DNA of 64,000 nucleotides from positions 1-64,000 of the forward strand of contig NW_020289985.1 of NCBI RefSeq assembly GCF_003144245.1, given 5' to 3'. The translations under genes and the position numbers were made by a program. The DNA comes from Jaminaea rosea (Eukaryota > Basidiomycota > Exobasidiomycetes > Microstromatales). Positions 10,589 to 52,778 of this stretch are shown here, in pieces. The notes under the pieces are model-generated. The model did not search any database. It had not been told where the DNA came from and saw only the letters and a list, made by a program, of their open reading frames with translations. Position 1 is the first letter of the stretch. Every line of letters begins with the position of its first letter.

Positions 10589-11666
10589 CTAGACTGCCTT
10601 TCCCTCCTTTTCCCCTCCAACCCGCAACCCCGTCTCCCTCTCTACCCGCTCCAACCCCTTGCTCCACCCACCCTCCACCACCCTCACACCCTCCTTGACC
10701 TTGGCCTCGCTTTGGCCCCAAAGACCGCGCATCGAGCCAACGAAGGACTCGCGTTGCTCCTTCACTGCCGAGGGGAGGTGTCGCGCCTCGAGCTCCTGGT
10801 AATAGAGGGAGAGATTGTGCGCCGTGTGTGGGAGGAAATAGTTGAGGGACGCAAAGAGGAAGAGGGGAGGAGAGACCAGACGGATTGGGAGGGTTCCTGT
10901 GTCGTGTCGTGCGAGGACGTGGTGCATGTCAATCAGTCAGTCAATTTCAACTTCGTCGTCGTCGTCGTCGTCGTCGCGTTGCCGCTTCTTTTGGCGCTCC
11001 CTTGCTCCCGACGCGATACCCACGATATCTCCCAAAGACGCTCCCGGCCAAAGTGGCTACACCGACGTAGAGTATTCCGGGAGTCAGGGGCTCATCGCGA
11101 GGCAGGATATCCAGGACGCGACGCTCCACGCGCTGCTCGACGCCGATCCAGCTCTGCACCGTCGAATGGACGCTGTTGCGCAGCGACTCTGTAGAGGCCA
11201 CGACGGCCCGGCGAGCGGAACCGACGTGTGATTCGAGGGCGGTGTGCGTTTCGACTAGCTTGATTGGCTCGCCAGGTGAGGAGTAGATGGGGAGCTGAGA
11301 GTGGAGGAGAGGGAGGGAGGGAAGGGAGGAGGTGAGCATAGCGCAGCGCAGCGTGTATGCTACTCTTTCTTTCCAGACTACATGCAGCCAAAGCAGCGCA
11401 GCCAGCGAGGCGGGGAATGCTCACCTTTCCCTTGACGCTGCCACTCGCAGTGGCATCGCCCTCCGCATACACAGGCCGAAGCGTAGCCATGGTCAAGGCA
11501 GTCGCGGCGGTCCCTCCAACGAGGAGCGGGGAACGAGCAAAGAGCTGGACGAGGCGAGAGAGAGAGACGGACGAAGCAAGGCAAGACAGGTCAGCAGAGC
11601 AGATCTCCGTGAGATGCGAGAGGCTAGCATCGCGAGTGGGGGGAAGCTCACCCCTTGAGCAGCCAT
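10589..11666 (-). CDS. MICOS complex subunit MIC26/MIC27 (apolipoprotein O-like)
   Basis: Inner-membrane subunit of the MICOS complex, which shapes mitochondrial cristae junctions. Four exons (11652-11666, 11425-11544, 11024-11294, 10589-10896) join in phase to 237 residues. Family features: the LPIYSSPGEP segment at about 46-55, a helical ESHVGSARR region, a first hydrophobic segment (GILYVGVATLAGSVFG) followed by Arg, then a second (VSPPLFLFASLNYFLP) ending in the conserved NYFLPHTAHN. The C-terminus is an amphipathic charged helix. The first exon is only 15 bases. I placed it from the GTGAGC donor and because the next exon then gives a plausible hydrophobic mitochondrial N-terminus. MIC26 and MIC27 cannot be told apart by eye. 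Confidence 0.85.
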
Positions 11667-11915: not shown

Positions 11916-13676
11916 TCACTCCCCCCTATATCTTCCCCTCCCCAATCCCTCCAATAACAGCACCCCCGCTTTCGCCCCATCGATAACCCAAACCCTCCTG
12001 TCATCCCCACCCGCCTCTGCCACACCCTGCAAAACTAATCCCTCCATCCCTGCCATGCCGGCACACCCCAAAATAATGGCCTCCGCCCCCCTCTCCACCA
12101 CCAGCCGGGCTGCCTCGCTCTTGATCCGTTTCTCGACGTGCCCGCGTAGAGAAGGGTCGCCCAGCTCCAACACTCCAAGCTCGGTAGCGATTGACCCCTT
12201 GTATCGCGAAGAGACGCCGCCCAGGTAGGAGAGGACGCCCGCATCTATATCCGGTAGCATGGCTCGCCCTGTCGTGAGGATACCGAAGGAGCTTGCTCCA
12301 CAGGCCAATGCATGGCCTACAGCCGCATCTAGGATGTGCATGCAGTTTAGCTCTGGCCATTGGTGGCGGATCATCCCTACTAAAGGGTGGGAGGAGAAAC
12401 AGCAGACTAGAACTCCGGATTTTGTTTCGAGTAGGGAGGGAGTGGAGAGGAGGGCATCGAAGCTTGTTTGGGCGGAGAGGATTGAGGTGGGCGGGTCGGA
12501 GATGCTGGCGGGGGAGGAGGGGGGACCTGTGGTGTAGGTTAGGCGGACGGAGGGGGGTCGGAGGGGTTCGAGGTGGTGACGCAGGCCAAGAGTGATGGAC
12601 TGGGCGGGTGCGGGCAAGGACAAGGCGGTGGTGAGTCTCGAATGAGAGGTTACGCCGGCCGCGCGTACTTACGTCGCTCGAGTTGGGGTTGAGGATCAAC
12701 AGGTCTACCGTGCCCGCATTTTCCCCACCACCACCTGGACTGGCCGCCGCCGCGCCATTGCCGTTCCCATTCGCATTGCTCTCCCCTGCACCCGTCGCTC
12801 CGCCATACGCCAGACTAGCCGCCTCGGCCGCAGCGGCCACATCGAACTCCCCCGCAACGCCGAGAGCGTGTATGCCGTTTGTGCCCGCCGAGCTCGACGT
12901 GGACGGTTGAGCGTGGTCAGCGTGCGCATGCGAGGAGTGGGATTGGGCCTGATGCGCCGCCTGAGCCTGAGCGTGTGCTTGGCTCTGGTTCTGCTGTTGC
13001 GCCGCTCTCAAAAAGTCCTGTAGGGCTTGGGCCGGAATACTGTTGGGGAGGACGTGCCCTCCTCCCGCCAGGCCGGTCGCATAATCGTGCTGGTGCTGCT
13101 GATGATGATGATGATGTCGCGAGGAGGATGGTCCTGGACTCCCACTTCCCCCCGCCGTAACGCCAGGTAATCTCAACCCCCCACCCACACCACCAGCACC
13201 CACAGCAGCAGCCGCAGCAGCCGCCGCACTTCTACTCGCGCATAGCTTCTGGTGTTTATGCAACGTGCTAGTTCCCGTACTACCATCCCTCTTGATCCGA
13301 TAGGATGTGCCGCAGTTGAGACATTTCACCTCCCAATGCGTCTCGCTTATCGGGACACGTTCAGAGTAATGGTTCCACACAGTCGTCGTTCGCGGTTTCT
13401 TTGCTGCTGCGGGTGCAGAGCTCGAGGAGGGAGGAGGATGCGAAGGGTCTCGACTGACACTGGCGCTGAGGCTGGCGGTGGATGTCGACGAAGGACTGTC
13501 CTGCGTTCGTGAGTGGGAGTGGGAGTGAGAGGTGAAGGAAGGGAGATCGTACTCGGAGCTGTGCGAGCGGGTGGGTGTGAGAGGTTGATCAGCACGACAT
13601 CCGTTGAATATTGCGCCACGCAGGCGCACGCGCACACGCACCGCTCCGGTGAGCGATGTTGGTGCTCTTCGGTCAT
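11916..13676 (-). CDS. BED zinc finger fused to a DCG1/hydantoin-racemase-like domain
   Basis: Three exons (13642-13676, 12673-13558, 11916-12599) join in phase to 534 residues. The N-terminus is Ser/His-rich. A BED-type finger lies at about 72-118: VWNHY, a CLNC pair, then LHKHQKLC. A low-complexity linker of some 175 residues (Ala, Gly, Gln, His) follows. From about 296 comes an Asp/Glu/hydantoin racemase domain: LLILNPNSSD, split by an intron exactly after the Asp, then VCCFSSHPL with a candidate catalytic Cys374 and ILGCAGM with Cys486. Both cysteines of the two-base racemase mechanism are kept. No in-frame Met lies between finger and enzyme, so two separate genes are unlikely. Known relatives act on hydantoin or allantoin. 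A DNA-binding regulator that senses such a compound is my inference. Confidence 0.8.
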
Positions 13677-13962: not shown

Positions 13963-14903
13963 ATGGCATCCCCAGCGCCAGCATCGACGCACCCGGCATG
14001 GCAACACAGCATCGCTCTACGAGTGACACAGCGCGACGCGAGGGAGCAAGCGCATGACGCCTTGATCAAGGATTGTGAGCGGGCGGCGAGCGGCGAGAGA
14101 TGTGCGGGGGAAGGCTGCATATATGCTGACCCTGACGAATGATCAACGCACGCGCGCAGACCAAAAGCTCGCCCAGTACGCCAAGAGTCTACGAGGCCGG
14201 CCATCAGCAGGAAGACCAGGGGTGGAGGCTCCACCCCCAGCTCCAACTCCAAGTGCATCCAGCTCCGCATCAACCTCTGCGCAACCGCCGCAGCCGCAGG
14301 CCACGCCCGCCTCATCCAAGGACCTCGCAGCAAAAGAGTGTGTAGCGAAGTCTAGCGTAACGTCCCATTGTATCTGCACACACACACGCACTCACACCAC
14401 CATTATCCCGCCTTTCTCCCCCGCACAGCGCCCTCATCTCCTCCCTCCAATCCCAACTCCAAACAACCCGCACAGAGCTCTCGGACCTGTACAAATCTCA
14501 CACCCACCTCACCACCCGTCTCCTGACCCTCAGCGATCAATCTGCCTCCCACTCTAGCTTAACAACCCAACTCTCCCTCCTCACACGACGCGAGCAGGAC
14601 TTGCGCGACTCCTCCGCGGAAAAGGACAAGGTCATCGAGCTACTCCAAGACGAACTGCGTACCCTCAGCTTGGAGTTGGGACAGGTCGAAGAGAGGGAGG
14701 AGAGACTTAAACGCGATAATGCTGGGTTGGTGAAGCGGTGGTTGGAGAGGGCGAGGGAGGAGGTGGAGAGGGTTAATGTGGCTAATGAGTGGGTGGAGGA
14801 GGTGCAGGAGAGGAGGAGGAGGGAGGGCCACGACGCCGGGAACAAAGAGGCTGGGATGGGGAGGGAGACGGAGGGCGGTGGTGATAAAGCGAGAGGAGAG
14901 TAG
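13963..14903 (+). CDS. ATG16: Autophagy protein ATG16
   Basis: Coiled-coil partner of the Atg12-Atg5 conjugate. Together they form the E3-like complex that directs Atg8 lipidation on the phagophore membrane. Three exons (13963-14074, 14160-14337, 14429-14903) join in phase to 254 residues. The N-terminus has the amphipathic Atg5-binding type helix (RDAREQAHDALIKDYQKLAQ). After a Pro/Ser-rich linker comes a long coiled coil from about residue 100 to 220. It includes the conserved LLQDELRTLSLELGQVEER stretch and the RDNAGLVKRWLER motif. There is no WD40 domain, as in yeast Atg16. It shares a 286-base divergent promoter with the BED/racemase gene and converges on the Tra2-like gene. Confidence 0.88.
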
Positions 14904-51740: not shown

Positions 51741-52778
51741 ATGCAACCCTTCAACGCCGGCCCCTCCCACTCAAATCGCGACTTGATCGGCCGCTCCCAC
51801 GACATCGAGCAGCCCTCCTTCACTTGGCCAAACGGGGCACGCGTCTGTCTCTCCTTCGTCATCAACTACGAGGAAGGAGGGGAGAACACGCTCCTCCACT
51901 CCGCCGAGGAAGGAGACACGCATGCCGAGTCCTTTCTCACCGAGAATGGAGTGGCTCCCACTGTGCTACCTCCTTTGAAGGAGCGAGAGCTCAGCAGAGA
52001 GTCGAGCTATGCGTATGGCTCTCGTCAGGGGTTGGGAAGGATACTGAGGCTGTTTAAGCGTTACGGGCTGAAGAGCACCAGTTGGAGCGTAGGAAAGGCG
52101 ATCCAGCTCAACCCTGGTGCGGCAAAGGAGATGGAAGAGTCTGGCTGTGAAGTAGGGTCACATAGCTGGCGCTGGATTAACTATGCGGGGATGGACGAGG
52201 AAAAGGAAAAAGAGCACATCGAACGTACCCTCACCACGCTCCAATCAAGCACATCTAGCTCCACCACCAACCCACCACTCGGCTGGTACACCGGACGTTG
52301 CTCCCTCTCCACGCGACGCCTCGTCTACGAAGCCTACGCAGCTCGCGGTCTCCAATCCCAGTACTACGACAACGACGCCTACGATGACGATCTCCCCTAC
52401 TACCTCTCCGCTCCTACAACCGACGGTAAAGGGGAGCCTATGCTAGTCATCCCTTACACGCTAGACGTAAATGACATGAAGTTCGGCATTTCCCCCGGCT
52501 TCTCCACAGGACGACAATTCCACGAGTACCTGAGCGATGCGCTTCGCACCTTGCTTCAGGAGGCAGAACAGGAGGGTCGATCCTCCATCCTCACCGTCGG
52601 ACTACACTGTCGCATTGTAGGGCGACCCGGACGTTTCGCTGGTTTGGAGGGTTTCGTACGCGAGGTCGTTGGGATGCAAGGTGGGGAAGGGAGGGAAAAA
52701 ATTTGGGTCGCAAGTAGGGGAGAGATTGCGCGATTTTGGAGGGAGAAGTTCCCGCCGCCGCAGCAGAAGAGCGTATGA
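51741..52778 (+). CDS. PuuE-type allantoinase / polysaccharide-deacetylase-family protein
   Basis: Member of the NodB/polysaccharide deacetylase fold group, closest by eye to the cofactor-independent PuuE allantoinases that open allantoin to allantoate. Intronless, 345 residues. Supporting marks: the substrate-side segment FVINYEEGGENTLLH at about 38-52, GLGRILRLFKRYGLKSTSW, the histidine motif GSHSWRW at about 139-145 (Asp/His substitutions relative to chitin deacetylases are typical of PuuE), GWYTGRCSLSTRRLV, and a late LHCRIVGRPGR. No signal peptide is present, which favours a cytosolic catabolic enzyme over a secreted cell-wall deacetylase. The length matches PuuE (about 300-320) with a short C-terminal extension. 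Its relation to the racemase domain at 11916-13676 is discussed under findings. Confidence 0.8.
   Translation: MQPFNAGPSHSNRDLIGRSHDIEQPSFTWPNGARVCLSFVINYEEGGENTLLHSAEEGDTHAESFLTENGVAPTVLPPLKERELSRESSYAYGSRQGLGRILRLFKRYGLKSTSWSVGKAIQLNPGAAKEMEESGCEVGSHSWRWINYAGMDEEKEKEHIERTLTTLQSSTSSSTTNPPLGWYTGRCSLSTRRLVYEAYAARGLQSQYYDNDAYDDDLPYYLSAPTTDGKGEPMLVIPYTLDVNDMKFGISPGFSTGRQFHEYLSDALRTLLQEAEQEGRSSILTVGLHCRIVGRPGRFAGLEGFVREVVGMQGGEGREKIWVASRGEIARFWREKFPPPQQKSV

Follow-up and report, generated by a model that had tools for sequence, protein, structure and literature searches.

Enzymes, and proteins derived from enzymes, take part in gene control in several known systems. In the bacterial regulator BzdR, a shikimate-kinase fold has been turned into a sensor, and the loss of catalysis is described as essential (PMC3602430). 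In two reports on fungi, PAPS reductase A of Tuber is described as an enzyme that also activates transcription, acting via a C-terminal tail (PMC4848566), and QutR and TanX as repressors from AROM-like domains that are separate from their Zn2Cys6 activators (PMC10512348). These enzyme-derived regulators are dead enzymes, tail-based moonlighters, or separate partner proteins. In this study, we analyzed a 64,000-nucleotide stretch of Jaminaea rosea, a smut-related basidiomycete of the Microstromatales in the Exobasidiomycetes (hereafter, the window; contig NW_020289985.1, positions 1 to 64,000), in which a minus-strand gene (11916..13676) encodes a BED-like zinc finger and an allantoin-type racemase domain in a single chain. 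By analogy, its nearest design precedent is BzdR, which likewise joins a DNA-binding-type domain, a linker, and an enzyme-derived domain in one polypeptide; however, BzdR is bacterial, has a helix-turn-helix domain, and has lost its activity, whereas the fusion is eukaryotic, has a zinc finger, and has apparently intact catalytic residues. The fusion resembles PAPS reductase A, QutR, and TanX, as they are described, in linking an enzyme or enzyme relative to fungal gene control, but has a zinc finger in place of a tail and one chain in place of separate proteins. As judged from its sequence, what sets it apart is that a BED-like finger shares one chain with an enzyme that has kept its catalytic positions and is the sole copy found in the genome. 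In the library searched, no paper paired "BED zinc finger" with "racemase".

The gene model comprises three exons joined across two GT...AG introns into one frame of 534 residues, all on the minus strand. Exon 1 (13642..13676; MTEEHQHRSPER) begins with the ATG at 13676-13674, exon 2 (12673..13558) encodes the finger, the linker, and the first racemase strand (LLILNPNSS), and exon 3 (11916..12599) encodes the remainder of the racemase domain and the stop codon. Intron 1 (13559..13641) runs from GTGCGT to ACAG; intron 2 (12600..12672; GTAAGT...CCAG) falls within the racemase domain, and its removal rejoins LILNPNSSD|SITLGL. The public J. rosea protein BDZ90DRAFT_280672 (P0001), labeled "BED-type domain-containing" in UniRef, showed 100% identity across the part used as query, and its full sequence is identical to the splice model. 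Exon 2 contains neither a Met codon nor a stop across its 295 in-frame codons, bearing out the claim of an earlier note on this DNA that one spliced frame runs through finger and racemase with no Met between them.

This exon structure bears on the possibility that the gene yields two products, i.e., the fusion plus a plain racemase from another promoter, exon, or start. In two related fusions (P0002 and P0003; see below), two and five Met residues, respectively, lie between the finger and the racemase, which speaks for such a product. In J. rosea there are none, the 11 ATGs in the other frames of exon 2 all reach a stop before the exon ends, and skipping exon 2 shifts the frame (719 mod 3 = 2), so that no ATG past the finger can start a plain racemase from exon 2. 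A non-ATG start or a further upstream exon may still provide one, but we consider a second product quite improbable.

To determine whether the fusion recurs, two racemase searches were combined into 188 distinct proteins: one with the racemase part among proteins of ~294-936 residues (74 proteins listed from the 7,996 candidates with the most shared words) and one with the racemase only (the best 120 of 189 matches). A C2HC/C2H2 finger pattern occurred in 3 of the 188, namely P0001, P0002 from Sympodiomycopsis kandeliae (Microstromatales), which shares the M-x-E-E start of P0001, and P0003, a metagenomic protein of 478 residues. A finger-only search, in which 14 candidates were scored, returned the same three; because it needs shared exact words, distant finger relatives may be missed. 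Over aligned letters, pairwise identity among the three fusions is 74-78% in the finger, 67-68% in the racemase (residues 295-488), 36-43% in the N-terminal tail, and 28-36% in the linker. P0003 ends in GCAGE where another metagenomic protein, P0075, seems to run into an intron, and in P0006, by inspection, the frame seems to continue through an intron at the site of J. rosea intron 2. Metagenomic proteins of this kind are probably unspliced frames, in which case the fusion in P0003 owes nothing to splice prediction.

Gene prediction could also have merged two adjacent genes. Merging does seem to occur in this family: PF01177 domains are joined to gamma-tubulin (Penicillium and Aspergillus), WD40 (Mycena), or phosphoesterase (Panaeolus) sequences in P0007, P0008, P0009, P0021, P0023, and others, most of which are likely to be merged neighbors, possibly with a conserved DCG1-gamma-tubulin gene order. 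In J. rosea, however, the finger and the first racemase strand share one Met-less exon, the same domain order and linker motif occur in two other sources, and P0003 appears to be one unspliced frame across both domains. We therefore rejected an annotation merge, which is highly improbable on the basis of the exon structure and the two further fused proteins; these proteins likewise answer the earlier note's proviso that relatives might always keep the two parts as separate genes. Together, the data support a real, conserved single-chain fusion of finger and racemase.

A tree was built from 38 racemase parts, hand-picked from the 188; in it, the three fusions form a clade with P0075 and P0076 (support 98/91). 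Enzymes from Meira, Exobasidium, Tilletia, Ustilago, Sporisorium, Violaceomyces, Testicularia, Pseudozyma, Thecaphora, and Pleurotus fall outside it. The stand-alone smut and mushroom DCG1 enzymes inspected, unlike the fusion, have no finger and no long linker, and six of those outside the clade (P0078, P0079, P0081, P0092, P0101, and P0107) are 240-261 residues long. Because P0075 is nested within the group of fusions, these three do not form a clade by themselves, and the tree requires two label changes; the sequences of P0075 and P0076 begin just beyond the intron-2 position. The simplest story, though not proven, is that the finger was gained once at the base of the clade including P0075 and P0076. 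A strongly conserved finger is found in one small fungal group whose sampled sister lineages carry the plain enzyme, and the fused and plain enzymes offer a before-and-after pair for an enzyme that may have gained a nuclear or regulatory role.

The finger (residues 65-118; 13240..13401, minus strand) has the putative ligands C91-x2-C94-x19-H114-x3-C118, retained in P0002 and P0003, with aromatic residues W73 and W87 toward its N terminus and a basic patch preceding it. BED fingers follow the pattern C-x2-C-xn-H-x3-5-[H/C] plus an aromatic residue on the N-terminal side, which this finger fits. Its model (predicted local distance difference test [pLDDT] 82-94 for residues 71-130) may bear a weak fold similarity to the BED structures 9l4j, 2djr, and 8eb5. 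The spacing and the N-terminal tryptophan are those of ZBED proteins and hAT transposases, but in the fusion the finger is attached to an enzyme, with no transposase part. The Pfam zf-BED profile (PF02892) did not match it in whole proteins, in finger pieces, or in a genome search at E <= 1. The finger named in the earlier note is present, but its assignment to the Pfam family does not stand; because of the missing match, we prefer the name "BED-like" and do not file the finger under PF02892. The genome search with PF02892 gave two matches (contigs C8 and C1), which were rejected as finger donors; both frames are C2H2-type proteins by inspection. With the finger as query, the genome at E <= 1 returned its own locus alone and no donor, and a PDB sequence search with a profile of the fingers from the three fusions gave three weak, unrelated matches. 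The hAT dimerization domain (PF05699) was not matched, but a control was equally silent, so its absence is not established. The finger likely binds nucleic acid.

A long, Q/H/A-rich, mostly low-complexity linker follows. Within it, the alignment reveals a conserved motif, AQALQDFLRAA (residues 188-198; 13000..13032, minus strand), whose score of 10 was not equaled in any of 200 shuffles (maximum, 9). The motif opens a predicted helix (residues 188-218; pLDDT about 70-75). It is somewhat reminiscent of Sin3-interaction helices, with one key hydrophobic residue absent.

The racemase domain matches PF01177 at residues 298-521 (E 1.9e-31; 109.9 bits against a curated cutoff of 31), spanning exons 2 and 3; NCBIfam profiles did not match P0001 or P0002. 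The two catalytic positions, Cys374 (12399..12401) and Cys486 (12063..12065), both on the minus strand, are Cys in all 48 rows of alignment A3 and align with cysteines of the Klebsiella enzyme (3qvj), although Cys374 lies opposite Gly in the 5lfd alignment. The intact-looking two-cysteine domain described in the earlier note is confirmed. The family-conserved positions are intact as well, and in its predicted fold the domain groups with allantoin racemases, resembling stand-alone fungal DCG1 and bacterial AllR enzymes (5lg5 and 3qvj). Of the hydantoin, allantoin, or amino acid pocket suggested in the earlier note, both the ranking of folds and the presence of pathway genes in the genome support the allantoin type. 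No signs of decay were seen, and a decayed enzyme was rejected; as far as sequence can tell, the catalytic domain is intact, as a "trigger enzyme" (i.e., an enzyme plus regulator) demands, and racemase activity on allantoin is likely.

These observations also bear on a pure sensor, in which the racemase fold would bind a hydantoin- or allantoin-like ligand and switch the finger, while catalysis would have been lost or would no longer matter. BzdR would be the precedent by analogy, but there activity had to be lost (PMC3602430), whereas here both cysteines and the family-conserved positions are kept. Moreover, the J. rosea genome search with PF01177 found one place, the fusion gene, and no second racemase. 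A pure sensor is therefore distinctly unlikely, and the intact positions fit a working enzyme at least as well as the sensor proposed in the earlier note.

Allantoin pathway genes are present in the genome. The likely pathway partner is a PuuE-type allantoinase gene, a single open frame 38 kb from the fusion gene (51741..52778, plus strand), which matches PDB PuuE 3cl6 (E 1e-71) and TIGR03212 (E 3.5e-86; 288.9 bits, under the curated cutoff of 424.6). Genome profile searches placed allantoicase and ureidoglycolate lyase at 330-332 kb of contig C11, uricase on C5, and a hydantoinase-B type gene on C10. TIGR03178, the family of classical allantoinases, gave a single match, below cutoff; to judge from its neighbors, this match belongs to a protein of pyrimidine synthesis and covers its dihydroorotase-like section. 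In earlier papers, PuuE1 is reported in U. maydis (PMC8092297), a PuuE study tracks the consumption of (S)-allantoin and the leftover (R)-allantoin (PMC6983136), and S. cerevisiae DCG1 is named allantoin racemase (PMC3646786). With a racemase, the fungus could also draw on the (R) half of allantoin. C11 (626 kb of 16.6 Mb) carries three of the allantoin loci, far apart: besides the allantoinase in the window of the fusion gene, it has allantoicase and ureidoglycolate lyase. A gene cluster around allantoicase was rejected; in 20 kb (nine frames scanned), the only Pfam matches were Mus7 and a forkhead fragment below cutoff.

We propose that the sole DCG1/allantoin-type racemase found in the genome acquired an N-terminal BED-like finger via the Q/H/A-rich linker with its helical motif. 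The enzyme would still interconvert (R)- and (S)-allantoin and supply the PuuE-type allantoinase, which would use the (S) form. The finger would bind nucleic acid and place the working enzyme in the nucleus at target genes, where it would serve as a trigger enzyme, with the linker helix as a candidate contact for co-regulators. We give this reading as a whole a probability of roughly 45%; that the bound enzyme regulates genes is a guess within it. Through its finger, an enzyme of nitrogen recycling may be able to work at genes.

Several observations suit a rival, a tethered or assembled enzyme, in which the finger is a protein-contact or oligomerization module that localizes or clusters an ordinary allantoin racemase and leaves genes unregulated: the catalytic positions are all kept, the PF01177 domain occurs once in the genome, the finger falls below Pfam zf-BED, and the linker is long and mainly low complexity. 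A passive tether would need neither a finger better conserved than the enzyme nor a basic patch before it, but these points are not decisive, and the tether remains a serious rival, somewhat less probable than the proposal.

Beyond the trigger enzyme, the protein might be a eukaryotic one-component regulator, with an active racemase in which filling of the pocket, perhaps by a single enantiomer, would gate finger-DNA binding, so that gene control would read allantoin supply or chirality directly. We regard this version as rather doubtful, and that allantoin in the pocket alters DNA binding is a guess; if true, one chain would perform the chemistry and also report it. Among basidiomycetes, the fusion is a specific candidate for gene control linked to allantoin.

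Among other PF01177 proteins, P0012, P0013, P0014, P0015, and P0017 (from Cladophialophora, Exophiala, and others) are DCG1-type proteins with long, disordered-looking N-terminal tails, no finger, and a common RGQNWL C-terminal end. Three Aspergillus proteins (P0054, P0056, and P0073) combine PF01177 with a carbon-nitrogen hydrolase domain (PF00795), which may reflect an enzyme with two activities or the merging of two genes. Upstream of the fusion gene, no GATA sites occur in 310 bases. The gene is flanked by a divergent ATG16-like frame (14361-14903, plus strand; PF08614, E 1e-21) and, on the opposite side, by an ApoO-like (MICOS) gene (10592-11420, minus strand; PF09769, E 8e-12).
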